Shown here piece after piece: positions 29,514 to 53,117 of a stretch of DNA of 64,000 bases (position 1 is the stretch's first letter; the number at the start of each line of letters is the position of its first letter). Below the pieces are notes generated by a model that saw only the letters and a list, made by a program, of their open reading frames with translations, did no database searches and was not told where the DNA came from. The stretch comes from Arthrobacter sp. zg-Y238. Lineage in GTDB: Bacteria > Actinomycetota > Actinomycetes > Actinomycetales > Micrococcaceae. A program made the translations under genes and the position numbers. The stretch is taken from the NCBI RefSeq assembly GCF_024385525.1, contig NZ_JANFLU010000011.1:186001-250000 (forward strand), read 5' to 3'.

Positions 29514-32377
29514 TTGTCCTCCTCGAAGAAGCGGGAATAGTCGCCCAGGGCGGGGCTGTCCTTGAGCCGCTCCCAGGTGTGCCGCATTCCGGCGGCGCCC
29601 ATCAGGGTGGTGTGGTTGATGTAGTGGTCCGATTCGGGCCGGGGCGGAAAGATCCCGGCCTGCAGGGCCGCCACGACCAGTCCGGCGTCCTCGCGGAGCC
29701 GGGCCTCGACGTCGGGACCCACCTCGTAGCCCACCCGTTCATACTTCCCGGCGGCGGTGATGAACCGGTATTCAGCCCGGACCTCCGCTGCGGGATCCGT
29801 AACTAAACGCCGGGCGAACACTCCATAGACCGGCAGCTGAAACCGGGTGCCACCGGCGGTGGGATCCTCGCGGGTCAGCTTCTTATACTTGTCCGCCTTG
29901 CCGGTCTTGTAGTCGATCACCAGCACCTGTCCGTTGGAGTGCCGGTCTACACGATCGACCTTGCCGCGGAACCTGACGGTGTTTCCGTTCGGCAGGTCCA
30001 GTTCCACGGGAGGTTCGCCGGCCTCGGCGCCGAACTCGGCTTCCACCGCTACGTGCTGCCAGCCGGCGTCGCGCGCCTGCTGGTCCATGTCGTGGACCTT
30101 CTGCAGGTCGGTGCGGATCCGGGACTTGTCCCGGTCCCAGGTGTGCCGCAGCCAGGCCGGATTGGTGGTGGCCTCAAATGCCTTCTCGGCAATTTCCAGC
30201 AACCGCTCGGAGGAAGCGGTCTGGCTGCCGTCGGTCAGGCCGCGGACGTAGTCCTCTAGTATCCGGTGCATCAGGTTGCCGCGCTGCAGTCTGCTGATCT
30301 GGACCTCAAGGGTCACGTCCTCAAACAGCTCGGCCTTGAGGACGCGGCGCAGGAAGTATGCCAGAGGGCTGACGACCCAGTCCTCCAGATTGGTGGGGGA
30401 GATGGGCCTCCGGGGATCGATGATCGGTCCGGAAACCCCGGCGAGGTTGCCGTTGAAGCGGGAGAAGGTTCCGTTCCGGCGGTCGGCCCGTACTTCCAGC
30501 ACCGAATCCAGCACCGGATCGGCCGCCAGGGCCCCGGTGGCCAGAAGATGGCGGACGCGCCACTCCTGGCCCGTGGCTGCCACGCCTGTGGGGGAACCGT
30601 GCGTCAGGTCATGCGCGAAGGAGGGCAGGTCCGTCACCTTTGTGCCCGCGATCCAGCGCGAAGGCAGCAGGGTTCCGCCGGCGCGCAGGTTGCCGCGGGG
30701 AAACAGGATGGTGCGCTCGACGCCGGTGGCGAGCAGCCGCTGGAACTGTTCCTTCCGGGCGGCGGCACGTTCGTGGACAGTCGGCAGCTTTACCGCGAGC
30801 AGATGGCCGGCGCTGTCGGGGAGCAGCGGATTTTCCCGGATACGGGCGGGGGCGAGTCCGTCCGCCGCGCCGGTGACGAAGACGACGTCGAGATCCCGGC
30901 CCACGCCGTCGTCGTAGGAGCCCAGGATTACCCCGGTGCCGCTGCTGCCGGTCCAGAACCGGCGGGCCTCAATACCGCGGGCAACGGCGGCGCGTACCGC
31001 CGCCGCCGTGGGTGCCGGGGCGATTCCGTGCAGCAGTTCGAGGTCGCGGATCACGTCGTGGAGCGTCTCGCGGGCCTTGGCGAGTTCCGGGCGTTCCGTT
31101 GCGGCCCGCTGGCCAAGGAACTCCGAGATGAAGCCGCCCAGAGTGCCTGCGGCCTCGGCCCAGGTCCGGGCGGCGAAGACCTCGGCAAGCCGTTCGCCCA
31201 GGACCGCGAAGAACCCGGTGAACTGGGCGTAGTCCTGCTGCCGCTTTTGTTCTGCTTCCGTTGGTTCCTGGCCTTCGTCCGCGTCCTCCTGTTCGGCCGG
31301 GGGAGAGGCGTGCAGCCGCTCGCAGACGGCGCTGCTGGGCAGGTTGTCCTGGCTCCAGTACAGGACACCCTGTGCCATCACGTCCAGAATCACCCGAACA
31401 TCGGGGTTCGCCGGATCGAGGCTGAGGAGATTCACCAGCCCGCGGGCCAGCCCCGTGTCGGCCAGGCCATGCGCGGACGGGCCGACAAAGGTGATGCCGG
31501 CTTCGTCGAGGCGTTGGGCCAGCAGGGAACGATAGGGGTCGGCCGCGGAATAGAAGATGCCGATGCGGTGGCCGGGAGTGCCTGCTGCCAGTTTATTGAT
31601 GACCAGGCGGACGACGGCGCGTGCTTCGTCGTCGGCGTCGGACGCGCTGAGGACCTGCTCGCCCAGGGCGGGGGAGGACGCCGCGGTGAGGTAGGTGGCG
31701 CGGGCGTGCTGTTCGAGAGCGGCACGGAACGCTGCGGCGGACGGGTCCTGCTCGTTGGCGAGCTGGAAACCGATCACCGGTCCGAGGAGCTTGCGGATCC
31801 GCGGCGTCTGCAGGGCTGCAGCGGCAGCGGAATAGAGGTCGTGTTTGGTGTACCAGCTGCTCCCCAGAACTCGGGCAGCGGCTCGGTGGACGCGGGCGAC
31901 CTCGGACACGAGCGGAGACAGGCCGGTCACGTCGTCGGGGTAGGCTGCGTCGAGGGATGCGGAGGTCGCGGCGATCGCGCGTGCGGTGGCCGGCTGGTCG
32001 GCGACTTCGGCAAACAGCCCGGGCGCTTCGGCCAAGACTGCGGTGACGGCGCCTTCGCGGACCATGGCCGGGAGCGGGGCACGGCCGGAGAGCCGACCAT
32101 CTGCGGCCGCGAGTTCCTCGGCCAGATCAGCCAGCGTGGTGGTGCTGACGGCGGCGCTGCCGCGGCCGTCGTTGAGGATTCGGCCCAGATAATGGGACAG
32201 GTCCAGTGCCGAGGCGCGGCTGGGTGCGATCACCGTGACCGGCTGCAGCGGCCGGCCCTGCTGGGCCGCTGCGACGGCGTCGGCCAGGGCATGCAGTGCA
32301 TGTGGTGTGCTGATGTGGGACCGCGTCCGGGCCCCTGCGCTCGGTGTTGAATCAGCACCGGATGGATCTGTACTCAA
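29510..32377 (-). CDS. AddB/RecC-like PD-(D/E)XK nuclease subunit
   Basis: A protein of about 955 residues. The N-terminal three quarters look like an inactivated helicase: VTVIAPSRASALDL replaces a Walker A, with later helicase-like framework such as VILGSYDDGVGRDLDVVFVTGAADGLAPARI. The C-terminal nuclease has RLQRGNLMHRILEDYVRG, then RFRGKVDRVDRHSNG and VLVIDYKTGKADKYKK (D and DYK active-site residues). Only one cysteine is present, so the AddB iron-sulphur cluster is absent. TTG 32377 is chosen because GGGGAG sits four bases upstream; an ATG at 32449 is the alternative. It probably pairs with the AddA-like product in end resection or defence. Confidence 0.75.
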   Translation of the reverse strand: MSTDPSGADSTPSAGARTRSHISTPHALHALADAVAAAQQGRPLQPVTVIAPSRASALDLSHYLGRILNDGRGSAAVSTTTLADLAEELAAADGRLSGRAPLPAMVREGAVTAVLAEAPGLFAEVADQPATARAIAATSASLDAAYPDDVTGLSPLVSEVARVHRAAARVLGSSWYTKHDLYSAAAAALQTPRIRKLLGPVIGFQLANEQDPSAAAFRAALEQHARATYLTAASSPALGEQVLSASDADDEARAVVRLVINKLAAGTPGHRIGIFYSAADPYRSLLAQRLDEAGITFVGPSAHGLADTGLARGLVNLLSLDPANPDVRVILDVMAQGVLYWSQDNLPSSAVCERLHASPPAEQEDADEGQEPTEAEQKRQQDYAQFTGFFAVLGERLAEVFAARTWAEAAGTLGGFISEFLGQRAATERPELAKARETLHDVIRDLELLHGIAPAPTAAAVRAAVARGIEARRFWTGSSGTGVILGSYDDGVGRDLDVVFVTGAADGLAPARIRENPLLPDSAGHLLAVKLPTVHERAAARKEQFQRLLATGVERTILFPRGNLRAGGTLLPSRWIAGTKVTDLPSFAHDLTHGSPTGVAATGQEWRVRHLLATGALAADPVLDSVLEVRADRRNGTFSRFNGNLAGVSGPIIDPRRPISPTNLEDWVVSPLAYFLRRVLKAELFEDVTLEVQISRLQRGNLMHRILEDYVRGLTDGSQTASSERLLEIAEKAFEATTNPAWLRHTWDRDKSRIRTDLQKVHDMDQQARDAGWQHVAVEAEFGAEAGEPPVELDLPNGNTVRFRGKVDRVDRHSNGQVLVIDYKTGKADKYKKLTREDPTAGGTRFQLPVYGVFARRLVTDPAAEVRAEYRFITAAGKYERVGYEVGPDVEARLREDAGLVVAALQAGIFPPRPESDHYINHTTLMGAAGMRHTWERLKDSPALGDYSRFFEEDK

Positions 32378-32463
32378 TGAACTCCCCTTGTTATTAAGTG
32401 CACTCAACCTAGCAGTAGGTGATTGAAACCGCGGGGAACGTTTACACAAGCACTCAGTACAAA

Positions 32464-33216
32464 TCAGAGCCGTGGTCGCTCGAGGACCTGCCTCACATAC
32501 CCATCCAGAAGTGCGGCGAGTTCGTCGTCCGAGAGGATGTCCAAAACCACATGCGAGCGGGCAGCCAACACCCGGGGGATCAACCCCCTCATCAGTTCAG
32601 TTCGAAGTATGGGCAGCAGCCCGTTCGCTTCAGCCCGCCATACTGCATCCCGGGCTGCCCTTGCTGCTTTTCGGTTCCCCGAAAGGCCGGACCGTTCCAT
32701 AATCTGCACAAACTCGTCCTCACCCAATGGAGAGCAACCACCGGGGGCCGCGTTCAGGTCCGGCCCAAGAGCCCACGCCCGCCACCAGAGGCGACGGAGT
32801 GCGTTTCGGGGTACGCCTATAAGTCGATTCTCAGCTCTCTGGGGGAAACGCCAGGGTGCGAGCTCGGGAACCAATACCAGCGTGAGGAAACTCCAGACAC
32901 CTTCGACGGCGGCGTCTCCGGGGACAATTCCGAGCTCCTTATATAGGTAGGTGCCCAAGGTGCGGTCGAGATTTTGTTGGGATCGCTGATCGAGCTTGGA
33001 GGGAAATCCGTACCTGGATGCGATCTCTCGGAGTCCGTCCTGGATCCGTTGCAGCTCTTGTTGTGGAACAGGGATTCCGCCTACAGCTGCAGGGGCCGCG
33101 GAAGGATGGCTAAGGGCACCATAGCCGACCAATTCAGTGAGGCCTTTGTCGGCCAGCTCGGCGATAATCCTGTGCGCGACGTCGCGGGGCAATCGGGGAT
33201 AGATGTAGATGCTCAT
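32464..33216 (-). CDS. DUF6339-like protein of the Z1/GHKL cluster
   Basis: A 250-residue protein starting MSIYIYPRLPRDVAHRIIAEL. It is largely helical, with SRYGFPSKLDQRSQQNLDRTLGTYLY near residue 90, EGVWSFLTLVLVPELAPWRFP near 125 and a C-terminal segment on RNALRRLWWRAW. From memory it resembles the DUF6339 family, which has no known activity and often sits beside Z1-helicase genes. ATG 33216 overlaps the stop of the preceding gene (ATGA). It is the last gene of the nine-gene cluster; the AddB-like gene follows 86 bp later. Confidence 0.6.
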   Translation of the reverse strand: MSIYIYPRLPRDVAHRIIAELADKGLTELVGYGALSHPSAAPAAVGGIPVPQQELQRIQDGLREIASRYGFPSKLDQRSQQNLDRTLGTYLYKELGIVPGDAAVEGVWSFLTLVLVPELAPWRFPQRAENRLIGVPRNALRRLWWRAWALGPDLNAAPGGCSPLGEDEFVQIMERSGLSGNRKAARAARDAVWRAEANGLLPILRTELMRGLIPRVLAARSHVVLDILSDDELAALLDGYVRQVLERPRL

Positions 33217-34106
33217 GACAGTTTTCCTATGGTGCTTTGCACATGGGCCTCAAACTTGGACGGTTCACTGTCCCAGAGTTTCCGGAGAATGTGCGGATCC
33301 GAGATTTGTGGCCACAGCTGCTGCAGGAGGCATCGGAGAACGGCTGCCACCGAGGGGTCCTCATGGTCGGGATCCCGGTCCAGAACTGTATCTGACTGCA
33401 CTGCCAGGACGGCCATCTGGCGGGTCACATCAATGTCCAGCAAATGCTGCAGCTGCTTGTTTTCCGGAGTGTGCAGTCCCTGCAGGAGACGCCTAATCGC
33501 CGGCTGTGACGTGTTCATGGACAGGCGCACGGCACTTGCAAAGGAGGCTTCCGGGTCGGACAGGTCGGCATCCAGCTGCCAAAGGGCATCGGGAGTGTCC
33601 GGGCGTGTTCGCCGGAAATCTTCCGCATCCGTTGGGAACTGGGCCCCGATCCCCTGGAGATAGACATGTACCGAGTGCTTCCAAAGGATGCTTCCCCGCT
33701 GGTGTGGGGCCAACGGATCCAGAGGAACGGAGGCATCTACGAGAATGAACGTGGTAAGGGTTAGGCGTCCGCCTAACTCGGTGCCGGGAACATCAAGCTG
33801 GAGTGGAACGGAAACATTCGCATCTGCAGGGGCTGCTGCATCCAAGAGCAGGATGTCGGCTTTGGTCGAATCGGATTTGGCTTTGACGACCACCCGGAAC
33901 TGACTTCCTTCCCCCATCCGGCACTGAGCGAGGATAAGCGGACGGTCTATCGTGACCTCAGCTTGAAGGCTGAGCACAGTCTGGTAATCCCACGAGTCCA
34001 TCTCTTCCGGAAGCGCTTCGCCGGAACCGTTTCTGGAGAAAAACCACCCTGAATGAACTACTGAATTTGGGTCCGGAGTGTAGAAAGGTGACACGGAGAT
34101 TTTCAT
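33213..34106 (-). CDS. Uncharacterised protein of the Z1/GHKL cluster
   Basis: A 297-residue protein I cannot assign. The N-terminal half is beta-rich (MKISVSPFYTPDPNSVVHSGWF; QAEVTIDRPLILAQCRMGEGSQFRVVVKA; VPLQLDVPGTELGGRLTLTTFILVD), and the C-terminal half is helical, with RRLLQGLHTPENKQLQHLLDIDVTRQM and a DPHILRKLWDSEPS tail. No catalytic motif is visible. It overlaps the GHKL ATPase gene upstream and the DUF6339-like gene downstream by four bases each, so its product is probably made stoichiometrically with them and may be a structural subunit. Confidence 0.6.
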   Translation of the reverse strand: MKISVSPFYTPDPNSVVHSGWFFSRNGSGEALPEEMDSWDYQTVLSLQAEVTIDRPLILAQCRMGEGSQFRVVVKAKSDSTKADILLLDAAAPADANVSVPLQLDVPGTELGGRLTLTTFILVDASVPLDPLAPHQRGSILWKHSVHVYLQGIGAQFPTDAEDFRRTRPDTPDALWQLDADLSDPEASFASAVRLSMNTSQPAIRRLLQGLHTPENKQLQHLLDIDVTRQMAVLAVQSDTVLDRDPDHEDPSVAAVLRCLLQQLWPQISDPHILRKLWDSEPSKFEAHVQSTIGKLS

Positions 34107-35956
34107 GCAGTACTGCTTTCTACATCCGCTGAAACATCCCAGAGAACACTGGATGCTGATGAACGTTTCGCGCAGATGACTGCGTGTACGGGCTCGTCAC
34201 CGAAGACTTTGAACCCAGAGCGGTGCCCCTTCAAAGGTTCTCGGTTCCCGTCGTACTCCGCGGAGATCAATTCCAGCTGGGGGTCCAGTGTGGCGTCACT
34301 CGTAGCACCATCCAGCGCAACCCCCACAGAAACAGTGACAAAAGTGACGTCAGTGCCCTTAGGTGGTGTCACGAGGCAGCGCAGATAAGAGGCGGTTTGG
34401 TTGCCGAGCATTCGGGGGCCGGCGTCGAGTAGCTCGATGGACACGCGCTTCAGACCCCTCTTGCCGGCGCCGCCACCGCCGGACGCCCCGGGCCGCCCCT
34501 TGCCCTGCCCGGCGGTTCCGACCAAGTGGGAGAGTGCGTTAGCCACCGCGGCTGTACTGGTCGATTCAACAGCTGCTGCCGGCTTTGGCCTGCCCCACTG
34601 CGTCAGGACTGCGTGGTCGATTTCACGAAGGGCTTTGAGCACACGCAACCGCTGGTCGCGGAGAGTGACGAGGTTCGGTTGCCATGAATCATGCGTTGGC
34701 GGTTCGGCATGAGCAAATGCGTCGTCCATGGCATCGTCAGCGCGAAAAACACCGGCCCATTCGATACCTTCCTTGGCTGGCGGACCTTCCCGATACTCAA
34801 CCACGAGTTCCGGGGAACGTAGCAGCACCGTGTGGTTACAGGCCCGGTTCGTGAACGGTGAGGCCGGAGGCGGGCTGTCAGGATCATCCGGCTTGTACCC
34901 GTCATCAATAGCCACGGGTGCGCTGAAAGGGGGAGTCGGAAACGGGACTGTTGCCAGCCTTCCAAGCCGCTCTTTGTTGCGCTTAATCTCATGGAGCCGC
35001 ACAACTGCTGTTGGTTCACCACCGTCTCCCCTGAGAGCCGAGTAGGCCGCAACGAAGTGGTTTAGGGGCGGTCTTGAATCCGGTTTCGGAATGGAGATTT
35101 CTGAACCGTCGAGGGTTGTTCGGATATCCATGGCCCTATCGTTGCCAACGAGCTTGGGCCAGAGATGCCATAAAACCGACTCGGCAATAAAGGTCATGCC
35201 CTGGTGGATGGTTCTGTGTCCGAAGTCAGGATCAAGGATCAGAATGTTCGTTCCCAGCGAGCCTTCAGCGATATCCGGCATACCAAGCCGAGCGGCGAGC
35301 GTGTCTGCCTCAATGCCCTCCAGCGGGACGGGTTCGCTCGAATCGTCTCTGCCCCACCAATGGCGCCCTGTATGGAGGATCCCGCCGAGCGCGAACTGAC
35401 TACCGATACTGCAGGCGATCAAGCGGCTCACGGGAGCACCGTTATGATTAGCCCGGCTGTGAACAACTATGGTGTGGGGTCGTGAAGCGATGTAGGCAAT
35501 GGTCTTGCCGAAGCCGTAGGTACCTCCGGTCATGCCGTCGGTGTTGGCTTTGCCCACATTGAGGATGAAGTCGACCCAGTCATAGTTTCCATCCGTCGAC
35601 TCCAGATGCCCTTGGACTGGTCCTCCAAGTCCTTTCGTATTGCGGTCGGACACATATAGGCCCACTAGGTCCGGGCGTTGAAGGGAGTGCGCGAGCGTGG
35701 GATCCGGAAGTTCGGAGGCGTTGTGGAAAACGGATTCACGAAGGCAAGTGACAACGCTCGCCGCCAAGGTCTCGGCAGCGATGTTGAAAACCACCGGTGC
35801 TCCACTTCCATCACGCGCGTCCCAACTGTTTTGTGCTGTTTCCCTCACCAAAACGGCCAGAGGGTCGAGATTGGGGCGGCCGAGTAGTTTTGCGAACCCG
35901 TCAGCCGCTAACCCTCCACTAGGGGAAAACCGCTCGGGAATCCAATCAAGAATCAC
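34103..35956 (-). CDS. GHKL-type ATPase of the Z1 cluster (second, longer copy)
   Basis: A protein of about 617 residues with a GHKL ATP-binding domain: N-box LAVLVRETAQNSWDA near residue 35, a degenerate D-box in LYVSDRNTKGLGGP near 105, and the glycine-rich GGTYGFGKTIAYIAS near 145. The remainder has a second mixed region and a glycine-rich linker GAGKRGLKR. GTG 35956 has GAGGGA ten bases upstream; TTG 35974 with no ribosome site is the alternative. The gene overlaps the PD-(D/E)XK gene. It differs strongly from the MutL/MORC-type ATPase encoded at the other end of the cluster, so the two are not simple duplicates. Predicted to be a nucleotide-driven clamp or sensor. Confidence 0.7.
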   Translation of the reverse strand: MILDWIPERFSPSGGLAADGFAKLLGRPNLDPLAVLVRETAQNSWDARDGSGAPVVFNIAAETLAASVVTCLRESVFHNASELPDPTLAHSLQRPDLVGLYVSDRNTKGLGGPVQGHLESTDGNYDWVDFILNVGKANTDGMTGGTYGFGKTIAYIASRPHTIVVHSRANHNGAPVSRLIACSIGSQFALGGILHTGRHWWGRDDSSEPVPLEGIEADTLAARLGMPDIAEGSLGTNILILDPDFGHRTIHQGMTFIAESVLWHLWPKLVGNDRAMDIRTTLDGSEISIPKPDSRPPLNHFVAAYSALRGDGGEPTAVVRLHEIKRNKERLGRLATVPFPTPPFSAPVAIDDGYKPDDPDSPPPASPFTNRACNHTVLLRSPELVVEYREGPPAKEGIEWAGVFRADDAMDDAFAHAEPPTHDSWQPNLVTLRDQRLRVLKALREIDHAVLTQWGRPKPAAAVESTSTAAVANALSHLVGTAGQGKGRPGASGGGGAGKRGLKRVSIELLDAGPRMLGNQTASYLRCLVTPPKGTDVTFVTVSVGVALDGATSDATLDPQLELISAEYDGNREPLKGHRSGFKVFGDEPVHAVICAKRSSASSVLWDVSADVESSTA

Positions 35957-36953
35957 TGTCTGCAAATCCCTCAATTAGGTCGAGCATTTCAACTTGTTCC
36001 AAGGGTGTGGGTGGCTCGTTGGTTACATCAATGACGTAGGTTATCGACACCACTCCTGGGGGAAGCTCAGATTGCTCAAATGAACGCGGAATCACCCTTG
36101 GAAAGTGTTCTTGTTGGACGTCGTATAGTCTCTGCTCTTTCAGAGTGAACCTTGAGTTCTGATATGCCTCTCTATGCGAGTCGAAATAACCCGCCCTGCG
36201 AAGTTTTCGTTCGAAGAGAGACGATTCCACCCCGAGGTTGAGAATCGTATCGACCATACTTGGCAGCGAATCTCCCGTCGAGGAACGCTCATACCGGGTA
36301 TAGGCCAGGAATAACTTGCCCGCGTCGTTGTTCGGTGCTTCGAGTTGGTGGAGGCTGCTGATGCCGATCCGGCGTCCTTCCCGAGCAAGGGACGCTTTCA
36401 CCTCTATGGCAGTATCACCGGCACAAAAATCATGCTGTGACTTATCGGGTCCGTGCCAGTGAGACAGAGCTTGAGGGTCTCCTGCGCGAACCAGCCTTTC
36501 CAGCATTTGGAGTTCAGCAAGCAGACCTATCTGCTCAGAAACGTTTAGCTCCGGCCCCGAGGCTGCAGCGAAGAGGGCTTTCCACTCTTGGAATGCGCGT
36601 GTCACGTCATGTGCAGGAGACTCCGATTCACGAAGCACCTCCAAGAGTTCACGTGCGAATTGCGTAAAAACTGTATCCAGTCTTCGCACCGTGCAGAACG
36701 CACTTAAGTAATCCCGTGACTGAAATTTCACCCTGCTCAAGCGAACCGCCGCCCCGTCAGCCTGTTGGGTCACAGCCTCGCCGGGAAGCAAGGGGATGAG
36801 CAGATGACGATCCGCCTTCGAGTCGAGCGCTGCCAAGACGTCGCCCGCCTCAACGCTGACGCCGATCGGGTTCGCCTGTGTAATCCCTTGAGTTCCCGTT
36901 CCTTCTGCGGAGTTGACCATCCACACTGAAAGAAGGTCTGGATATTCGGTCAT
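35946..36953 (-). CDS. PD-(D/E)XK-motif nuclease-like protein of the Z1 cluster
   Basis: A 335-residue protein. The nuclease-like core is about residues 165-200: CAGDTAIEVKASLAREGRRIGISSLHQL, where D and EVK form a PD-(D/E)XK active-site pattern. The family (DUF4420-like, PD-(D/E)XK motif proteins) is typically encoded next to Z1 helicases in phage-defence loci. ATG 36953 overlaps the Z1-2 stop (ATGA). With the helicase it would be the DNA-cleaving module of the second half-system. Confidence 0.75.
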   Translation of the reverse strand: MTEYPDLLSVWMVNSAEGTGTQGITQANPIGVSVEAGDVLAALDSKADRHLLIPLLPGEAVTQQADGAAVRLSRVKFQSRDYLSAFCTVRRLDTVFTQFARELLEVLRESESPAHDVTRAFQEWKALFAAASGPELNVSEQIGLLAELQMLERLVRAGDPQALSHWHGPDKSQHDFCAGDTAIEVKASLAREGRRIGISSLHQLEAPNNDAGKLFLAYTRYERSSTGDSLPSMVDTILNLGVESSLFERKLRRAGYFDSHREAYQNSRFTLKEQRLYDVQQEHFPRVIPRSFEQSELPPGVVSITYVIDVTNEPPTPLEQVEMLDLIEGFADSDS

Positions 36954-39556
36954 CCCAGAGCCACCTTGTCGTGGGAGCCCTCAGCATCCACGTAGGCGTT
37001 CAGGCTGTCGTCGGCTTCGTCAGTATTGAGCATGGACACATCCACCTGAATGGCGTTCTTCGGCTCCGATCCTGCGGCAGCGGCGGGGAAGGAGAACGCC
37101 ACACCCACCACATGCTCCGCGGCATTCAACTTTTTGCGGCGGTCCAAATGGGGTTGGGGTGCCGAGTCCTTATCAATGGGGTAGATCACTAGCAGCGGAC
37201 GTCCCTCAGCATTGCGAACTTCCTGTAGCTGAGCATCGCTCGCAGCCTTAGCCTGGCTGGCGGTCCACCCCAGATCGAGTACACGATCAACCCGTGACAT
37301 CAGCGTGCCAATGTTGGCTACTTCTGGATCACTGCTTACGAGCTGTGAACGAGTGATCAGGTTCACGCGTTGCTCGAGGCCAAGGTCGAGTGTTTCCGCA
37401 GACTTGTCACTTTGACCGGATTTCGAGACCACTGCAATGTTCCATTCATGGAGCGCCCCAAACTCCAGTTGCGTTTTTACATAGTCGTAGAGCATGCCCT
37501 CGGACATCTCGGACTTGTCATTAAAATGATAGTGACCCAAGAAGCTCAGTATTGATTCAGCAGGAACTCCCTTGAAAACGATCCTCTCACCGTATACCCC
37601 CTCATCAAGGGCATCGATTTTTGCGGCTGATAGAAGCTCCTTCGTTGCTTCAATGTTTCCTGCCAGAATCTCGGGATCGGTGCGGTCGAAATATGTCGTT
37701 TGGGGGTGGGTTTCACTGAAAGAGGCAGATGCCTTTATCGCGAACTGCATCTTCAGGGGAGACGTCACCTGCATTCGCGGATGGGTCTGAATGCGTACTG
37801 CCACATCACGTGGCGACGCAGCTCCGCCCTCATAGCGTTTGATTTCTGATCGAAGGTCGCTTTCAATCTCTGCGAGGAACTGGAAGTCATCCTTGAGCTT
37901 GCGGGTAGTCCAGACCCTAGGAAGATCCTCGTAACCACGCCGATACCCGAACCAGCGTCCCATCTGAAGTGCGGAATCATAGGCACCCGCTGTCCTCAGG
38001 AAAAATGAGGACACAAGGCCTTCCAGAGTTAAGCCCCGAGAAAGCGTGTTGCCGCCGACGGCAATGACCGTCGCTGGGTCCGCTGCGTAAATGAGGCGCT
38101 CGGGCGAGGCGCTGTTGTCAGCGACCACCTTCGTGTCAGTGAGTACGTCGGGTAGCAGGCCCAGCAACTCTTCGAATGACGGCGCTACCAAATTGTGGCG
38201 GGCAGCCGGTTCCCGTTGCACTTCGGATTCCCACTGGTTCTGCCACTTCGTCGTGTCGCCGCTTCGGAGTTCTTTCTGCAGGTCTTTCACATGTTTCCGG
38301 ATAACCGGCACCAAAGTGTTCTGAGGCTCGACCCTCATGGTTGTGTGGATCAGCATGCTGGAGTGCTTGGCCTCTCCGTTTCTAAACCGCCGTGCAGCCG
38401 TAGCCAGCAGGAACCAGCGGATGGCGTCGGAGAGGCTGGGGGTCACTTTGGGGGAGTAGGGGCTCTTAGGGCTGGATTTGTACGCCTCCGCTTCGGACTC
38501 AGGTACGAATCTGATCATGTTGTGGCCCTGGTCATCGGAGCTCTCTTCCGGCTCAGCCACGGGGGCTCCGAAGAGTTCTTCGGAGCCGAAGTATCCGGCC
38601 GGCTTGGGGAGGGAATAGATGAAGTCCCGCGGATAAATGTTCTGTGGGTCTGCGGGATTGGCCAAAACGTTGGCAAACGGTGTGGCGGTATATCCCACGT
38701 ACGCCACACGGGGCAACCCTAAGAGATCAACGAGCAAGCCGTTAATTGCTGTTTGATCGAGCTCTGCATCTCTTGCGGAGTTGGGACTGGCCTGGTCTGC
38801 CTCGTCGTCAATGATGAGCACGGGACACTTGTTAAGACCGCCCTTTTCATGGGCGTCCAAGAGCCAGTCGCGAAGATTTGTGAGCCGCGAAACGTTCTTT
38901 TTTACCACTGCCAACAGCCGCAACTGTGACCCGGCAACCAATGGAAGCGCTTTGACGGGATTGCCGAAATCGCCGAATTCATCTGTTAGCTGGACCCAGT
39001 CTGCCGGTCTCAAATCGCAAAGCTGACTGTCCAGGCGCAGTTGGGTCTGGCGTCGCAGGGAGTTGTGCACGCCGGAAAGGACTATGAACAGTCTGTAGCC
39101 TGCATCAGCGGCCTTCGCGATGGTGGCAGTAAAATTGGCAGTTTTACCCGACTGGACATAACCGAGCACCATTCCGCGTGTCCGGATGGTTTCGCTGTGC
39201 GGATCGGCCAGTAGGGACACTACATCTGTGGAGGTCTTGTCGAGAGACGGAACGGCATTCGCCCAACCCGGGTCGGCTTGCAGCTTTGCCTTGAGGCTCG
39301 GCCAGAAGACATCATGGGGTTGGGGGCCGGCATACCATGGCTCCGTTTCCGATTCCTCATCGAATACGGTGACGTCGTGAGCGTCGGCGAGTCTTTGCTT
39401 GATGATCAGGTCGCGTTCGGTAAGAACGTCCTCAACCAACCCGTCATTGTTGAGCATAATACGCAAGGTATTTATGGCAGCGTCTTTGGAAACGCTGGTT
39501 TTTATAAGAACTTCGAGGGTATCCAGCGCCGCGAGTCCTTGGGCGTTTAGGGCCAT
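36950..39556 (-). CDS. Z1-domain helicase/ATPase, second copy (Z1-2)
   Basis: An 868-residue superfamily 2-like Z1 ATPase. Walker A GYVQSGKTANFTATIAKA is near residues 132-148, the Walker B/DExx region LIIDDEADQAS near 255, and the Z1 hallmark GGNTLSRGLTLEGLVSSFF with QMGRWFGYRRGY near 540. Z1 proteins are described in restriction systems with MutL-like ATPases (Iyer, Abhiman and Aravind, 2008) and in Mza. ATG 39556 has AAGGATG upstream. It is 50 bp downstream of the AIPR gene and fused by overlap to the PD-(D/E)XK gene downstream. Confidence 0.85.
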   Translation of the reverse strand: MALNAQGLAALDTLEVLIKTSVSKDAAINTLRIMLNNDGLVEDVLTERDLIIKQRLADAHDVTVFDEESETEPWYAGPQPHDVFWPSLKAKLQADPGWANAVPSLDKTSTDVVSLLADPHSETIRTRGMVLGYVQSGKTANFTATIAKAADAGYRLFIVLSGVHNSLRRQTQLRLDSQLCDLRPADWVQLTDEFGDFGNPVKALPLVAGSQLRLLAVVKKNVSRLTNLRDWLLDAHEKGGLNKCPVLIIDDEADQASPNSARDAELDQTAINGLLVDLLGLPRVAYVGYTATPFANVLANPADPQNIYPRDFIYSLPKPAGYFGSEELFGAPVAEPEESSDDQGHNMIRFVPESEAEAYKSSPKSPYSPKVTPSLSDAIRWFLLATAARRFRNGEAKHSSMLIHTTMRVEPQNTLVPVIRKHVKDLQKELRSGDTTKWQNQWESEVQREPAARHNLVAPSFEELLGLLPDVLTDTKVVADNSASPERLIYAADPATVIAVGGNTLSRGLTLEGLVSSFFLRTAGAYDSALQMGRWFGYRRGYEDLPRVWTTRKLKDDFQFLAEIESDLRSEIKRYEGGAASPRDVAVRIQTHPRMQVTSPLKMQFAIKASASFSETHPQTTYFDRTDPEILAGNIEATKELLSAAKIDALDEGVYGERIVFKGVPAESILSFLGHYHFNDKSEMSEGMLYDYVKTQLEFGALHEWNIAVVSKSGQSDKSAETLDLGLEQRVNLITRSQLVSSDPEVANIGTLMSRVDRVLDLGWTASQAKAASDAQLQEVRNAEGRPLLVIYPIDKDSAPQPHLDRRKKLNAAEHVVGVAFSFPAAAAGSEPKNAIQVDVSMLNTDEADDSLNAYVDAEGSHDKVALG

Positions 39557-39606
39557 TTTTCATCCTTGAACTTGATACGAGAGTAAAGCAACCGTGTGGT
39601 GACGTG

Positions 39607-41682
39607 TCACCAAGGACTAAAGAGGGTAAATCCCCGTTCATTGGCATTGGCAACCAGCTGGATGAGCCTGGCAGCCTGCCTTTCTGAAGGGACTCCGGAT
39701 TTTCGTCCTGTCATAAGTCCCAAGATGCTCATGTCGGTAGGGGAAGCGACCCTGTTCATGCCGGCAAACCCTTCCAGTGCCTTCCAATGCTCTGTTGGGA
39801 TCTCATAGAGCCGGGTTTGCAGGCCGATTCCATTGTCCACCTTTTGGTTCGCCTTGGCAGCTTTGCCGCGGGCAGCGACGGTGGCGGCGTCAACCAAAGC
39901 CGAGAGGAAGTCTGCGGGCAACGTGTAGGGCATGGCTTTGATGGTGTCCCAGCACTGGGCCTTTTTGGCCCACTCCGTGACGTTCGTTGTACTCCGATGT
40001 TCGCTGGTGAGAACCTCCTGGACGAGGCGTCCCACCTGGTTCGCGACTACCAGGACGGAGTCCGGCACGGCTTGTGCGGACCACACGGCGTCAAAATCGA
40101 AGACCTTGCCTTGTCCCTGCCGTTCTACCAAGCTGGCAATCTTGGCAACGGTGTAGGCGGCTATGTTCGCCAAGTACGCCTTGCGATACCAGTCAGCATT
40201 CTTGATAACGTTCCTGACCTCGGCGAAGAGGATGCCCTTGGCTACCGTCTCTTTAAAGTACTGTTCGTTGAACTGGTCTGGATCCTTATCCCAGCTCTTG
40301 GCCACGATATCGGCAAAAGCAACGAAGTTCTTTTGTGCCCCCGAGCTCACAGTGTGGGGCCGCTGGTCCCATGACATAAGGTATTTGGCCAATGCCGGTT
40401 TATCGAACTTTTGCGACTTCGGATTCAGATTTTCGAAACGGACGGCCTCTGAGCGTGAAAGCTTGCTGCGTTCATTTTCATATTGCCCGCGAGTACGTTC
40501 GTAGTACCAGTGGGTGCTGTGGACGGCACCGGAACGGGACGGGACAAGCACCTTGCGCGAGAGCTCGGCCAGGCGGACGTGGTATGGACTGTTGGAAAAG
40601 AAGTCCGCCGAGCTGACTGCATTCTGGCTGTTCGCAAACCGCGAAATGTTCGGTATGAGCTCGGCGGCGAGAGCGGGAGCGACGACTACCAGTTTCATTT
40701 GGACGAAGACGCCATCCAAAACTCCCTCAGATTTTGCTTCCCTTTGCACAAAAAACAACGACGCGGTGGTCTGGCCGCCATTCACTATTTGCAGATCTTC
40801 GATCGATAGAATGGAACTTCCGTCCTCAGACGTTGTGACACTAGTTGCTGTGGCAGTTACTCCGTTGTTGAAGGCCATGAAGTTCTGCGGAGCGGAATGG
40901 ATTGTGGCACGGATTCCCTTGTTGATCTTGCCCCTATTGCTGAGGTAGGACCTCACGTTACTTTCGAGCAGCCGGCTCCCATGCTTGGCATACAGGGAGG
41001 ACAGGACCCGGCCAGGCACGGAGGTCAGGTAGGTCGCAAACTCTGGCGTGGATTCGACCCGAAGCGCGGGAAGCCCTTGGTTTGCCCACTCCGTCAGATC
41101 GATCTGAAGCGGCTCATGGCCGCTCTGGGACTGGTGGAGCTGGTGGAAACGCTCGATATCCCAAAGATGAAAGTCCACGGGGATTCCGTGGATGTCCTCA
41201 GAAGGCAGGGAACGCAAACGATCACTCAACCGGGCATCTGTCATGAGATAGAGGCGGTAGCGCGAAACGTTCCTGCCCCTGCTCCGCAGATCCCACGCGA
41301 GCTGATATGCCGGCGAGCTTTGTTCTCGCCCCTGCATGAAGCTCCCATCGAGTGCATCCAGCAGGAAGTAGTGAAGGGCCCTGAGAGCAGCTTTGGCGTC
41401 GGTAGCCGAGAGCGTTTGAATAGTCTCAGTCCCGTAATGGACGCTTGCGACGACGGCAATACTGTTATCTGCGTTCTCGAGGTCGTAGCCATTGACCTTG
41501 AGTTTCCGCTGATTGGTACCCGCGCCCTCGAAGTCCAAGACTTCGATGTCATCGAACTCGCCCGCTTCGGTCAGTATTTCTCCGCAGTGCCTGGTAAAGG
41601 CGGTAGCGACGAATTCTCCCTCGGCGTTAGCCAAGGCACCGACAGCAGCGGCCTGCTGCTGGAAGTAGCTCTCAATATCCAT
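39607..41682 (-). CDS. AIPR-family protein (abortive-infection phage resistance)
   Basis: A 691-residue protein with the AIPR pattern: NKGIRATIHSAPQNFMAFNNGVTATATSV near residue 255, then IEDLQIVNGGQTTASLFFVQ and FVQMKLVVV. AIPR proteins are found in phage-resistance loci, including Mza, but their activity is poorly defined. ATG 41682 has GGGGGA upstream. It lies 52 bp downstream of the first Z1 gene and 50 bp upstream of the second, so it sits at the junction between the two halves of the cluster. Confidence 0.8.
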   Translation of the reverse strand: MDIESYFQQQAAAVGALANAEGEFVATAFTRHCGEILTEAGEFDDIEVLDFEGAGTNQRKLKVNGYDLENADNSIAVVASVHYGTETIQTLSATDAKAALRALHYFLLDALDGSFMQGREQSSPAYQLAWDLRSRGRNVSRYRLYLMTDARLSDRLRSLPSEDIHGIPVDFHLWDIERFHQLHQSQSGHEPLQIDLTEWANQGLPALRVESTPEFATYLTSVPGRVLSSLYAKHGSRLLESNVRSYLSNRGKINKGIRATIHSAPQNFMAFNNGVTATATSVTTSEDGSSILSIEDLQIVNGGQTTASLFFVQREAKSEGVLDGVFVQMKLVVVAPALAAELIPNISRFANSQNAVSSADFFSNSPYHVRLAELSRKVLVPSRSGAVHSTHWYYERTRGQYENERSKLSRSEAVRFENLNPKSQKFDKPALAKYLMSWDQRPHTVSSGAQKNFVAFADIVAKSWDKDPDQFNEQYFKETVAKGILFAEVRNVIKNADWYRKAYLANIAAYTVAKIASLVERQGQGKVFDFDAVWSAQAVPDSVLVVANQVGRLVQEVLTSEHRSTTNVTEWAKKAQCWDTIKAMPYTLPADFLSALVDAATVAARGKAAKANQKVDNGIGLQTRLYEIPTEHWKALEGFAGMNRVASPTDMSILGLMTGRKSGVPSERQAARLIQLVANANERGFTLFSPW

Positions 41683-41734
41683 TTGTCCCCCATTGTCTTG
41701 ATGGTGATCCCTGAGAGGATCGGTTGTGCTGCAG

Positions 41735-44605
41735 CTAAGCTAATTGTTCGTAATCCGAGACCCAGTAACGTTGGGCAACGCGGTTTAATAAGTATTTGGC
41801 GCGGCCGTTGCGCCCACGCGGGTCGTAGCCGGTTTTGGGTAGGGCAACCTTGAGAGCCATAAACGGGAGATGTTGTTTCTGCGCCTCTTCAAGTGTGCGC
41901 ATTAACTCAACAGTGTTCCGCGGAAGCTCGGCCAAATCCTCCACCTCAATGGTTCGACTCTGGTCTGCTCCGCCTGCGCTGACATACAGCGGATAGATCA
42001 ACAGCTGAGGCTTGCTGAGGTGACCGTAAAAAGCGGTTTCGGGAATCGAACTTTTTGCGTCCTGACCGAGCTCCCGGAGAGCCTCCATGTATCTTCCGGA
42101 AGCTTGTTGCTCGATCTCTTCGTCGAGGAGTTTCTGCAAATCCTCAGGACCTGCCAAGCGGCCGCGCTTGCCACTGACCCACAGCGACGCCCCTCTCGAC
42201 GTCCCGTCCTTGGAGAACAACGGACGAAAAAGCATCTGCCGTTCAACGGGATAACACCCACTGAGGGGTCCGAGGGTGAGGGGCGCGTTTCTTTTCACGG
42301 AACCGTTGACAACGACGATGTCCCACTCTTTGAAAAGATCACCTTCGCTGCTGCGCACCATGCGTTCCAGGCTTGCACCGTTGAACAGTACGTCATCGGG
42401 TGCCGCCGAAAAGAGGCGGAGCGCGTCAGCGATCAGGTCCTTGGGGACCGAGCATACGCGCGTATATCCCCGGCGGGTCCTGTCGACGGCGCAGCCGTTT
42501 CCCACCGCTTCGCTCAACAGCTTGACTATGGAAGTGTGGTTTTCCCTCTGGACTTCAACACTGGTGGAGAGTTTCGTGGTTTCCAAATTGCGTCCCAGCA
42601 GGTTGATTTCCTTTTGGGCTGACACGGCGTGCCTTGACTTGTTTCGGGCGGTGATCAGAAGTGACTCGGGGTGTTGCTGCACGGCGAGACCGAAGTCCCG
42701 GGGGATCATTTTGCTTCGACGCATATAGGCGAGATCCACCCGGAGCTCTTCCACCGCTGTGGCAATGAATCTGTAGTCCGCAGCTGTACCTTCGCTGATC
42801 CACAGCCTGCAAATGTCTTGGTACCCGTCCCGGTACCCGAACCAGCGTGCCATCTGCATCATAGTGTCGGCAGCGGCAACGTTCCGGTGGAAATAGCTGA
42901 CCACCAGTCCGTCCAAGGTCAAACCGCGGCTGAGCAAATCACCGCCGATGGCAATCTGCCTCTCCGGCACTTCGCCATCATATTCAGAGGGATCGATCCC
43001 CGGCGCCGAGTTATAGACCTTGACTCGCACTTCCGCGACTGAAGCTGACAGCTGGGACAGAACACTTTCCCAGGAGGCACCACTCGCGGTGTACTGGCGC
43101 GCAAAGGTTCCCTGCAGCTCCTCTAGTAGCGGATGTGTCCGTCCCGCAGCGTAAGCGGAAGCGTGCAGTTGAATGGCTGTTTTGTATTGAAAAAGCGCTT
43201 CACGAAGTGCGTCCGCCACGTGGTTTTGGACATCGGTGAAGCGCGAAACGTTTACCAGCATGGAACGTTTTGCGGGTGCTTTCAGCCGATGGTCCAAGAT
43301 GGCGTTGGCCAGTAGGTAAGTACGGAGCGCCTCCTCAAGGCTAGAAGGCAGGCCCTGGGGGCGTTGAATCTTCTTGTGTTTTAAGGGAAGCCAGCGAACA
43401 GCGTCTTTGAGTTTCTGTACCTGGGTTCCGGGTTCGTCCGGCGTCCGCCCGAATACCGCCCGGACGCCAACGTAGTTGCTGGGAGCATCCAGGGGGTAAA
43501 TGAAGTCTTCGGGAAACAGGTCGGGCAGTTCCTTGCCATCCTCGGTGAGGCAAGCCGTTGCCTCGTCATCGATGAAGATGTTGGCAAAGGGCGTCGCCGT
43601 AATAGCCAGGTAAGAGGACCTGGTAAAGAGGTTTAGAAGCCGCCTGATAGCTGAGTTTATTGCAGTGGGATCATCGCTTTCGTCGTTGGTATTGATCGAC
43701 GCGTAGTCGGACTCATCATCAATCAGCAACAACGGTAGATCGATCTTCTGGTGGCTGCCGGCTTTAGCGTGGGCCCATCCTTGCACTGCCTTGAGGACGT
43801 GGGTGTTCTTCTTGACCACAAACACCAACGGCGGGGAGCTAGGCGTCGGTAGGGCGACATCCCCGGCGGTTCGACTCACCTGTAAGTAATCCATCAGAGT
43901 CGTGGTGAGAGATGTGGCATCTGCGATCCCTCGATCCACGTTGCCAATACCGATATGCACGTCTCGGGGAACGCGAGCTCCGTTAAGCATCCCGGTGAGT
44001 GCCGTGTCCCTGCCGATGAACCCCTCGTCGATCCGGGAATGCGTTTGCTGACGCAGGTATTCGGTGTTCCCGGAGAGGACGACGATAACGCGATAACCTG
44101 CGTCGGCCGCCTTGTTCATCAGAGCAAGATAGTTTTGGGTTTTCCCTGACTGTACGTCGCCAATAACAAGGCCTCGGCGATTCCAGAAGCCGGTCCTTCT
44201 CGGGTCCCCGGCAAGGTCAAGAATCTCGTCGCTGAAGTGATCCAGTCCGTCGAGAACTGCGCCCGAACGCCCGGAGTCGGAAAGCATATGCCGATAGGCG
44301 AACCAGCGGCGCCATACGATGTCGGCCTTACTCTTCTGCAGCCACGGTATGTGATCGTCCTTGACGAGCGGGCCGCCTTCGCTCGAGGACCCGGTAGCGG
44401 TCAGCTTTTGTACCCAGTGCTCCACGAGCTCGTCCATTTGCGATTCGGTTGAGGCCGTCGGAAGCCGCGTACGTGCACGATCGAAAGACAATCGAATCTC
44501 ATCTTCGGTGAGGTCCGGACGGTATTCATCGGTGTCGGAGTCTTTAAGGAGAGACAGTGCGGTCGCCTCAACCGCAGAGACTGGAAATAGGAATGCATCC
44601 GTCAT
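41735..44605 (-). CDS. Z1-domain helicase/ATPase, first copy (Z1-1)
   Basis: A 956-residue protein with Walker A GDVQSGKTQNYLALMNKA (about residues 149-166), Walker B LLLIDDESDYASINT near 295, and the Z1 hallmark GGDLLSRGLTLDGLVVSYFH with QMARWFGYRDGYQ near 570. It shares the same motif order as Z1-2 but is about 90 residues longer and clearly diverged, so the two are old paralogues rather than a recent duplication. ATG 44605 follows the stop of the MutL-like gene by only two bases. Confidence 0.85.
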   Translation of the reverse strand: MTDAFLFPVSAVEATALSLLKDSDTDEYRPDLTEDEIRLSFDRARTRLPTASTESQMDELVEHWVQKLTATGSSSEGGPLVKDDHIPWLQKSKADIVWRRWFAYRHMLSDSGRSGAVLDGLDHFSDEILDLAGDPRRTGFWNRRGLVIGDVQSGKTQNYLALMNKAADAGYRVIVVLSGNTEYLRQQTHSRIDEGFIGRDTALTGMLNGARVPRDVHIGIGNVDRGIADATSLTTTLMDYLQVSRTAGDVALPTPSSPPLVFVVKKNTHVLKAVQGWAHAKAGSHQKIDLPLLLIDDESDYASINTNDESDDPTAINSAIRRLLNLFTRSSYLAITATPFANIFIDDEATACLTEDGKELPDLFPEDFIYPLDAPSNYVGVRAVFGRTPDEPGTQVQKLKDAVRWLPLKHKKIQRPQGLPSSLEEALRTYLLANAILDHRLKAPAKRSMLVNVSRFTDVQNHVADALREALFQYKTAIQLHASAYAAGRTHPLLEELQGTFARQYTASGASWESVLSQLSASVAEVRVKVYNSAPGIDPSEYDGEVPERQIAIGGDLLSRGLTLDGLVVSYFHRNVAAADTMMQMARWFGYRDGYQDICRLWISEGTAADYRFIATAVEELRVDLAYMRRSKMIPRDFGLAVQQHPESLLITARNKSRHAVSAQKEINLLGRNLETTKLSTSVEVQRENHTSIVKLLSEAVGNGCAVDRTRRGYTRVCSVPKDLIADALRLFSAAPDDVLFNGASLERMVRSSEGDLFKEWDIVVVNGSVKRNAPLTLGPLSGCYPVERQMLFRPLFSKDGTSRGASLWVSGKRGRLAGPEDLQKLLDEEIEQQASGRYMEALRELGQDAKSSIPETAFYGHLSKPQLLIYPLYVSAGGADQSRTIEVEDLAELPRNTVELMRTLEEAQKQHLPFMALKVALPKTGYDPRGRNGRAKYLLNRVAQRYWVSDYEQLA

Positions 44606-44607
44606 TT

Positions 44608-46071
44608 CTAGAACTCCGTCCCGTAGGAAGTTTCACGGAGGGCCGCTTCGGCGCGCGGGTGTTTGTCGAACGGTTCCGAGGTGAGCATGGCTTTGACAAA
44701 GGCTTCCGGGGCGAGCGTGGTCTGAAGCTGTCCCCAGAGCGCCCTTGCCAAATCCCTAAGGTCTTGGTCCTGCACCTCCGCGCCGGAGTGGGACAGGTCC
44801 TGCCCCATCTTGTTGTAAACATCCTCGATGGGAAACGTTCGCTCCATGAGACTCAGAACGGTTTCCAGGGCAGCCGACTCATGACGATCGAACGTGCTGC
44901 TGAGCGCGATCAGTGCAGGGTGATTTCTGTTGACCTCGTAACGGAACGATTCAGCGTCAGAGACGGCATTCCAGATGTGTGTGATGGGACTGCGCTCTGT
45001 TCGCCCGCGATAGGTGTGCGCGCGCTGGCTCGGGCCCACAATGGTGGCTGCAACGGCGCGAAGCCGGTCCCTAATGACGGGCGGAGGTACCGCTTGGGCC
45101 TTCTTGATGTCTAGGGACCACAGATGATCCAAGGAATTCGGAACATCTACTTGCACCCGAGCCAGCTTGCCCAATTCCTGTTTCGGAGCCACACGGAACC
45201 AAGTTCCCCAGATAACAAGGCGCATTGCCCGGTAGATGTAGAAACCCTGGCTGTCGCGCAATGAGCCGTTTACATGGGCCCTCCTACGGTCCGAGGGCGA
45301 CATCATGTTCAGGTGAGGCAGAGTATAGGGACGCAGTTCGATAGTGCCTTGGTCCAGAGATATGCGTTCCAGCGGACCAATTTGGGTAGCTTTGTGATCC
45401 TTGAGCAGGGGGTCAGTCGCAGGGACAGAAGTGAAGTTCATACGGATATCGAGCTGCCGTCCATGCTCGCCCGCTAGGAATCGATGAAAAACGAGTCCCA
45501 AATGGGAGGCAGCACGCAGCATGGCTTCATCCATGGACGCGATTGAGTTTCCACTACTGTTTTCGAGCTGATCAAGATCCTGCCAGAGGATCATGGTCCC
45601 GTGATCCAATGTCTCCAACGCCGCATACTCCGGGAGCGCCTGGTATTCTTCCGGTGCAAGCCGCAAGAGACTCCAGCTAGAGGAGCTGCTGAGATAATCC
45701 AAGTCCCAGCGGAAAGCATGTATCTCGCTGCGTTGTTTTGTCACCAGGGTGAGCTTGCGGCACTGGGAAATGGATGCGGTTTTGAGTCCGAGGCCGAACC
45801 GTCCGAGATCGTGGCTCGCACGCAGGTTCCGCGAGTCATTCCCTGCCAAACGCATGGCATCTTGTGCTTCCAAGGCGGTCATCCCCAAGCCGTCGTCGAT
45901 GACGGCAACGTAGGGCTCACCTACTGCAGAAAACCGAATGTCCACCGTTGCTGCGCCGGCTGTGATCGAGTTGTCGACAAGGTCGGCCAACGCGGTTTCC
46001 AAGTTGTACCCGACAGCCCTCATGGACTCCATGAGCTGCGGTCCAGGCAGCAGTGTGATCGCGTCCGTCAA
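44608..46071 (-). CDS. MutL/MORC-type GHKL ATPase of the Dcm/Z1 restriction module
   Basis: A 487-residue protein with a textbook GHKL domain: N-box ETALADLVDNS (25-35), D-box AVIDDGLGM (56-64) and G-loop FGLGLKTAS (92-100). The region after it resembles the S5-like second domain of MutL/MORC proteins. The family was recognised in restriction-modification operons as the prokaryotic relative of MORC ATPases. TTG 46071 is used because GGGGGA lies four bases upstream. The gene follows the C5-methyltransferase across 106 bp holding a hairpin. Confidence 0.8.
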   Translation of the reverse strand: MTDAITLLPGPQLMESMRAVGYNLETALADLVDNSITAGAATVDIRFSAVGEPYVAVIDDGLGMTALEAQDAMRLAGNDSRNLRASHDLGRFGLGLKTASISQCRKLTLVTKQRSEIHAFRWDLDYLSSSSSWSLLRLAPEEYQALPEYAALETLDHGTMILWQDLDQLENSSGNSIASMDEAMLRAASHLGLVFHRFLAGEHGRQLDIRMNFTSVPATDPLLKDHKATQIGPLERISLDQGTIELRPYTLPHLNMMSPSDRRRAHVNGSLRDSQGFYIYRAMRLVIWGTWFRVAPKQELGKLARVQVDVPNSLDHLWSLDIKKAQAVPPPVIRDRLRAVAATIVGPSQRAHTYRGRTERSPITHIWNAVSDAESFRYEVNRNHPALIALSSTFDRHESAALETVLSLMERTFPIEDVYNKMGQDLSHSGAEVQDQDLRDLARALWGQLQTTLAPEAFVKAMLTSEPFDKHPRAEAALRETSYGTEF

Positions 46072-46096
46072 GCGTCCCCCAGAGCTAAATGCGATT

Positions 46097-46130
46097 AGTA
46101 CTTATGAGGATCAGACTATCCTCTCGTACT
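46097..46130 (-). other. Hairpin between the methyltransferase and MutL-like genes
   Basis: AGTAC/GTACT and GAGGAT/ATCCTC form an interrupted stem (outer 46097-46102 with 46126-46130, inner 46106-46111 with 46118-46123) with a 6-nt loop, in the only sizeable gap of the cluster. On the transcript strand it reads AGTACGAGAGGA. It may modulate read-through or stability between methylase and restriction genes. Confidence 0.4.
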
Positions 46131-46177
46131 GACATTCCTGTTCTAGGAAACCCCATCGGGTGCTTGGGGGATGCTGC

Positions 46178-47656
46178 TCAGCTGTATCCCATAACTTCGG
46201 CCACACGCTGTGCAATTTTCGATGCCAATAGTGGTGGAACCGCGTTCCCCACCTGCGTGTACTGCTGAGTCCGATTCCCCAGGAAGACGTAGTTGTCGGG
46301 GAAGGTCTGCAGCCGCGCTGCTTCACGGACGGTGAGGCTTCGCATCTGTTCATGGTCGGGGTGAATGTAGTAGTGCCCGTCTTTGGCGATGTGAGACACG
46401 ACAGTGGATGAAGGTTTCCCCCACGCCTGGACCCGGAACCGATCCTCGAAGGGCACCACCACGTTGTTGATGTTGTTGTGCTTGGGCCAGTGGGCAGCCG
46501 GCAGGCTGCGCACCTTCGGGCTCGAACCGTCGGCCGTCACCAGCGCAGCCAGCAGATAATAGCGAACCAAATCTTCAAGCATGTGGCCACGGGCTTCATG
46601 GTTCCACGTAACAGGCGCAGCATCTTTACGGAGCCATGTTTGGAGCTCACCTGCTGCGGAGGCCTTATCGAAGGGCTCCGGGGGGCGGACGGATGTCGAC
46701 TTGGTGTCGAGTTCGTAAGGGCTGGGAGCGGACGCCCGCTCTTTACCCGGAAGCGCCTGCAAGAACTGGTGCGCTTGCTCGCGTATGGTGGCCCAGTCCT
46801 CCCACGTGGCATGCGGACGGCGGGAAATGCCCGAGCGCAGGTGGGGCAGAGACCAGATAGCATCCTGAACAGTTACGGGTTCGCGGTGTTCAAGGGCCTT
46901 TGGGGCCGGAAGCTGGGCGTCCCGGCGCAGGCCTACGATGATTACCCGGTGGCGCTTCTGGGGAATTCCATACAGCTCTGACTTGATGATGAAGTCGGAG
47001 GGTTTGAGTTCCCCGGTGTCGCTGTTGACCACCATGGAGTGGAGATCGTAGCCAGGTGCTCGCAGATCCTGTTCGATGAGCTCGAAAATCTTGCCGTCCC
47101 CGCTTTTGGACGAGAGCATCCCTTTTACGTTCTCCATCACGAAGACCGCGGGGCGGAACTCGGTGATGATGTGCAGGTATTCCTTGTACAGGAAGTGCTT
47201 GTGGTCGTCTTTGAAGGTGACGTCGTGCTTGCGCCGGGAGCGTCCGGCCATGGAGTAGGCCTGGCACGGTGGTCCACCGATCAGGACCCATTCAGAGGCA
47301 TCCTGAAGCGATTCCCGAATCAACGTGTCCGACTCTGGACGGCTGTCCTCGCTCAGGGTGAACTGTCGGACTTCTTCTTCTGCGTGTTCGAAAGCCGCTG
47401 CCACCTCGGGGGCTGATCGCATCTCGTCGTAGGTGACGTCCTTGGCGAGGAACTGCTTGTAGATCTCAGGTTGACCTTCAGGTAAATCGGAAAGGAACCG
47501 GTGAGCTGCGCGCAGGGTCAGGGTCTTTACTGCCGATGTCTCCATCTCGATCGACAGAACCGTCTGGAAGACCCGGTTGCCATCCTCATCTCGGATGCTG
47601 GAGAAGCCTTCGTTTAGGCCACCAGGGCCAGCAAAAATGTCAACGATGGGAATCAC
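46178..47656 (-). CDS. DNA (cytosine-5-)-methyltransferase (Dcm family)
   Basis: A 492-residue C5-cytosine methyltransferase. Motif I VDIFAGPGGLNEGF is at the N-terminus, motif IV GGPPCQAYS with the catalytic Cys near residue 135, motif VI VFVMENVKGM, motif VIII QKRHRVIIVG, and motif X QVGNAVPPLLA near the end. GTG 47656 is chosen because GGAGGA (47661-47666) lies five bases upstream; a TTG at 47668 would start inside that ribosome site. It is the first gene of the nine-gene cluster and probably protects host DNA from it. The target-recognition domain gives no readable specificity. Confidence 0.92.
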   Translation of the reverse strand: MIPIVDIFAGPGGLNEGFSSIRDEDGNRVFQTVLSIEMETSAVKTLTLRAAHRFLSDLPEGQPEIYKQFLAKDVTYDEMRSAPEVAAAFEHAEEEVRQFTLSEDSRPESDTLIRESLQDASEWVLIGGPPCQAYSMAGRSRRKHDVTFKDDHKHFLYKEYLHIITEFRPAVFVMENVKGMLSSKSGDGKIFELIEQDLRAPGYDLHSMVVNSDTGELKPSDFIIKSELYGIPQKRHRVIIVGLRRDAQLPAPKALEHREPVTVQDAIWSLPHLRSGISRRPHATWEDWATIREQAHQFLQALPGKERASAPSPYELDTKSTSVRPPEPFDKASAAGELQTWLRKDAAPVTWNHEARGHMLEDLVRYYLLAALVTADGSSPKVRSLPAAHWPKHNNINNVVVPFEDRFRVQAWGKPSSTVVSHIAKDGHYYIHPDHEQMRSLTVREAARLQTFPDNYVFLGNRTQQYTQVGNAVPPLLASKIAQRVAEVMGYS

Positions 47657-48086
47657 GGGGTCCTCCAAAATCAGTACGGCTCTCCAGGCTACCAGGCAGG
47701 AACGTGGAGCCTTGTAATCTTACCGGCTCGGCCCGTTCACCTTCACCCCAGTGAACATCGCAGCACTGACAGTTTCATCACCTTAGGGATGAAGGGTAAA
47801 CACTGGCCTCCTTGCCGCCAAACTGGCATCTGGCGGTACGCAGCTACTCCCCGCGCCCCTCCCCGCAACAGAACAGATGAGACTGCTGGATCTCCTTCAC
47901 CAAGGCGCCAACCGTCGATGGAGAGTCAGGGCGGAGTCGTGCCCTTCATTTGTTATTTGGAGCAGATCCGTATGGCCACCATGCCTCTTCCGCGACTAGC
48001 GTGCTCAGTTGGGGCCTCATTGACTGGTGAGGCAAGCGGCTCGTTCAGGTACGTCAGCGCGGTTCATCGCCTATATTGGGAGAGAA
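47657..48086. other. Divergent promoter gap between methyltransferase and HEPN/CBS-like genes
   Basis: These 430 bases contain no credible gene: short open frames lack ribosome sites and similarity. The one notable structure is GTTCAC-N10-GTGAAC at 47735-47756, about 80 bp upstream of the methyltransferase start, a possible operator for the cluster. Confidence 0.35.
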
Positions 48087-49880: not shown

Positions 49881-50175
49881 GATTCCCCCTTATCGTCCGG
49901 CTAGTGCCGGGGATTTGTCAGGAAATCTGCCCGAGACAAAGACTCTTGGCTTCGCCGACCGCGCAATTCTTCGCGGGAGAGCGACCGAGCCACCTCGCGT
50001 GACTAATACACACTCCCCGCCGAGAAGGCAAGGAATGCCTCCACCCAACCCAGCTCAGACTCAGGCATCCGAGTGTGGTCGAGTGACCTCTACTCGTCCT
50101 CGGGAAATCAAATTTGTACCACCACAGGGTGATGTTGTGCACAGCAGGATTCGTTAACCGGCATTTTGTAGTGCT
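49881..50175. other. Gap upstream of the adenine methyltransferase gene
   Basis: I see no gene here. It must hold the promoter of the methyltransferase or of its regulator region; no clear -35/-10 pair is recognisable. Confidence 0.3.
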
Positions 50176-52866: not shown

Positions 52867-53117
52867 TTTGTAAATCTCTTTTCAGTGTTATCGGGAGTAT
52901 TGACGGTTTTGCTTCAGGACCTGAAGGTGAAGTGCGTTTGAAGTCTTACGCTTAGGTCGCCCTGTTACTTGGGGACTTAGGTGGTTTAGGTCTGCCGAAT
53001 GGCGTCTGAACGTCTCCGAGCGTTGCAACTGTTACTTGGGTTGTCAAATTTCAACGCAGACTGATCCCTCTAACGGTGACGTAGAATGCCTCGACGGCAT
53101 CGGCTAGGGGAGGTTCC
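52867..53117. promoter_or_regulatory. Divergent promoter region with 12-bp direct repeat
   Basis: CTGTTACTTGGG occurs at 52962-52973 and again at 53029-53040, 67 bp apart, between the endonuclease gene (-) and the Mrr-like gene (+). No gene lies in the gap. The shared hexamer TGTTAC links it to the palindrome at 50233-50253. Confidence 0.4.

Follow-up and report, generated by a model that had tools for sequence, protein, structure and literature searches.

Background

MORCs, which are defined by the motif GhXhhpXXRhl, and paraMORCs occur in restriction neighbourhoods together with a distinct SF2 helicase, restriction endonuclease (RE)-fold nucleases and methylases, and paraMORC2 is characterised by an ExxxH motif in the C-terminal part of its S5 domain (Iyer, Abhiman and Aravind 2008, PMC2292703). 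The MZA anti-phage system is represented by MzaB-MzaE in NCBIfam and PADLOC; in the 19 MZA-like loci fetched as our comparison sample, the gene order is MzaB, MzaC, MzaD, MzaE, with MzaD in all 19 and an AIPR protein in 18, the one locus without AIPR (L171) being one that may not be MZA proper. Here we describe a nine-gene cluster in a 64,000-nucleotide stretch of the Arthrobacter sp. zg-Y238 genome (hereafter the window), in which MZA-type genes are closely followed by five more genes.

Three further described systems resemble the cluster to some degree: (i) CglI / NgoAVII (PMC4267653) differs in comprising three genes, without GHKL, AIPR or DUF6339 proteins, and in using a PLD-family nuclease with a B3-like DNA-binding domain, neither of which was among the Pfam matches (E <= 0.01) of our nine proteins; (ii) the island of Corynebacterium diphtheriae BH8 (PMC5379612), likened here by description, also holds an EcoRII-like endonuclease; and (iii) the type II system Pin25611FIII of Prevotella intermedia (PMC5608340) is by description among the closest known systems.

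Two motor sets beside a single nuclease gene of the DUF4420 family

The nine genes reported by the first-pass annotation were confirmed, all of them on one strand (32464..47668, minus), as follows:

46178..47668, minus: C5-cytosine DNA methyltransferase (DCM), 496 aa when read from its longest start; PF00145, 9.4e-50
44608..46071, minus: GHKL1, MORC-type GHKL ATPase (MzaB homolog), 487 aa; HATPase_c_3, 9.1e-31
41735..44605, minus: MzaC, between the MzaB homolog and the 52-bp gap
41683..41734, minus: 52-bp gap at the usual mzaD place of MZA loci, the nuclease gene missing there
39607..41682, minus: AIPR protein (MzaE homolog), 691 aa; PF10592, 1.6e-90, and AIPR_N, 4.9e-42
39557..39606, minus: 50-bp junction between the upstream and downstream modules
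36950..39556, minus: gene between the AIPR and PD-(D/E)XK genes, termed Z1-2 in the first-pass annotation
35946..36953, minus: PD-(D/E)XK nuclease (DUF4420), 335 aa; PF14390, 2.1e-52
34103..35974, minus: GHKL2, GHKL ATPase, probably a paraMORC2, 623 aa; by alignment and motifs
33213..34106, minus: U8 protein, 297 aa
32464..33216, minus: U9, DUF6339-like protein, 250 aa

Judged by gene order and family matches, the genes upstream form an MZA set that lacks its nuclease. Homologs of MzaB and MzaE are present, while the MzaD expected between MzaC and MzaE is absent, and a gap of 48-52 bp occupies its place in 5/5 composite genomes (that of the window and four other carriers). The set also differs from the MZA system in scoring below the NCBIfam equivalog cut-offs: 304.5 bits against 850 for the MzaB homolog (NF041932, 9.7e-91), 451.1 against 1500 for the MzaC homolog, and 357.9 against 1050 for the MzaE homolog (NF041935, 9.4e-107). 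The downstream nuclease likewise reached only 99.8 bits against the MzaD-type cut-off of 420. For MzaA there was no NCBIfam match at E <= 1, and the PADLOC matches for the methylase are the best 25 of 58 families. Because no ExK-type motif was seen in the aligned N-terminal stretch of the MZA AIPR proteins, the AIPR protein is no obvious substitute for the missing nuclease.

A search of the whole genome for DUF4420 returned a single match, the nuclease of the downstream cassette, which carries a GE..DF..EVK-type motif. In a tree of 64 nucleases it groups with the nucleases of 44 other cassettes (support 91, a branch not starred) rather than with the MzaD type, and it sits within a starred set of 12, all of them cassette sequences. 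Given the gap at the mzaD place, the single DUF4420 match and this placing in the tree, the cluster has two motor sets next to a single PD-(D/E)XK gene of the DUF4420 family. The first-pass proposal of two joined systems is partly supported. At the 50-bp junction an MZA-type set meets a cassette that is mostly found apart from it elsewhere; the 52-bp gap, which had been read as a second sign of joining, lies where the MZA comparison loci carry mzaD. No promoter-like or terminator-like site was reported in the junction by a simple consensus scan.

The two GHKL ATPases and the downstream cassette

The two GHKL ATPases, described as diverged in the initial annotation, differ in their motifs. GHKL1 contains the MORC motif (GFYIYRAMRLV, residue 276), as do 19/19 MzaB-type proteins of the comparison loci, whereas the motif was not found in GHKL2, which has QNSWD, DRNTKGLGG, GTYGFGK and an ExxxH (EPPTH). 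Since the MORC motif is absent from GHKL2 and ExxxH is kept in all 17 sequences of its alignment, GHKL2 is probably a paraMORC2. The PADLOC candidate PDC-M33 offers a partial likeness: PDC-M33A was matched by 17/17 GHKL2 proteins scanned (best 2.2e-16), but its best stretch in the GHKL2 of the window covers residues 37-216 only, and among the matches listed no other protein of the cluster matched PDC-M33 at E <= 0.01.

The window has all five genes of the cassette. Across 91 distinct loci the order of the cassette is unbroken in each, and all five genes are present in 84 of them; U8 and U9 each occur in 91/91. As GHKL2 is probably a paraMORC2, the outline of this cassette would be old knowledge: the accessible text of PMC2292703 describes paraMORC2 neighbourhoods in which a GHKL protein with a conserved ExxxH is accompanied by methylases, RE-fold endonucleases and a distinct SF2 helicase, but it mentions neither a constant set of five genes that includes U8 and DUF6339 nor the joining of such a set to a MORC/AIPR one. 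Literature searches on DUF6339, DUF4420, paraMORC and their combinations, outside which most subscription papers fall, yielded nothing evidently describing the five-gene cassette.

U8 has a beta-rich N-terminal part and a helical C-terminal part (AlphaFold2 pLDDT 93.7, pTM 0.71), with no PDB match at E <= 0.001 (best 1.1e-3). U9 is helical (pLDDT 96.0), with invariant Arg and Trp columns and no match at E <= 0.001 among PDB or viral sequences. It scores 13.9 bits against DUF6339 (PF19866; gathering score 23.2), its homologs in L100 and L019 lying above the cut-off and that in L020 below. Relatives of U9 are joined to a C5-methylase domain in 21/91 loci, a fusion checked by Pfam in one of them (L100). 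On two Rhizobiaceae plasmids, L018 and L020 (8500-17415), the cassette lacks the PD-(D/E)XK gene and has an AAA ATPase ahead of it, as if the cassette nuclease had been swapped out; it is also preceded by a protein annotated as UvrD-helicase in L020 and by one annotated as TGBp1 in L018.

A proposed shared nuclease and its alternatives

The composite cluster, which occurs in a few Arthrobacter-like bacteria, holds one DNA methylase gene and one nuclease gene of the expected kind. We incline slightly toward the view that two defence machines, normally apart, share one nuclease in this cluster: the MZA set would draw on the downstream PD-(D/E)XK nuclease, and the one methylase would protect host DNA against both halves. 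Such an arrangement suggests that immune modules can merge and share parts.

That the two halves are instead independent of each other we regard as rather unlikely. They occur together in all five carriers of the genus, with a conserved spacing of 49-50 bp, and their left flank takes at least two forms; where mzaD is absent, another DUF4420 nuclease is present. Independence would nevertheless fit their separation elsewhere, with no AIPR gene in the fetched flank of the 89 other cassette loci (0/89) and no GHKL2, U8 or U9 in the fetched stretches of the 19 MZA-like loci (0/19), as well as the other defence-like genes of the island and the difference in synonymous divergence (dS) between the halves.

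Several of these observations, with others, weigh against a shared nuclease. The composite has been seen in one genus only, and may therefore have arisen by a local accident and been retained because each half is useful alone. Relative to G766 and G778, dS is lower in block 2 (0.13-0.30) than in the MZA genes (0.32-0.60), so that the recombination histories of the two halves are in part distinct. The methylase differs from that of G771 at a dS of 0.51, exceeding that of core genes (0.19, 0.23), and its descent is therefore not simple; methylase labels on the tree also cluster beyond chance (10 changes, as compared with a shuffled mean of about 15). The MZA set, finally, might rely on a different nuclease encoded elsewhere in the genome, as the genome-wide search covered DUF4420 only, or might work without cleavage.

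A reading of the MZA half as a remnant in decay, with only the methylase and the downstream cassette still working, is very improbable, even though mzaD is gone and G780, which carries a swapped cassette, showed no MZA genes.

Methylase region and neighbouring genes

The methylase motifs PPCQ, ENV, QKR and GNAVPP were all found, and a GTG at 47656 is as plausible a start as the longest one. A methylase of the same family forms a unit with a stand-alone cassette in L042, L048, L093 and G780. Upstream of the methylase, at about 47668-47790, the element GGTAAGATTAC precedes a stretch resembling an inverted repeat, GGCTCC ... GGAGAGCC; both are similar across the five composite genomes and may be promoter and operator.

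To the left of the cluster, overlapping genes (26190-32449, minus) encode a PDDEXK_1 protein (979 aa) and a UvrD-type helicase (1107 aa), a pair that we take to resemble an AddAB/AdnAB-like helicase-nuclease. In the window, G762 and G771 this pair lies beside the cluster, and in G780 it lies beside the swapped cassette; no match to the PDDEXK_1 protein was found in 3/3 genus mates tested. Farther left are a GIY-YIG protein (25619-26221, minus) and a NERD and UvrD_C_2 helicase protein (22580-24277, minus). To the right are further defence-like genes, for a NERD protein (49269-49880, minus), an Eco57I-type methylase (50176-52098, plus) and an Mrr-type restriction endonuclease (53118-54179, plus), a region (49269-54179) in which the GC content drops to about 50-55%.
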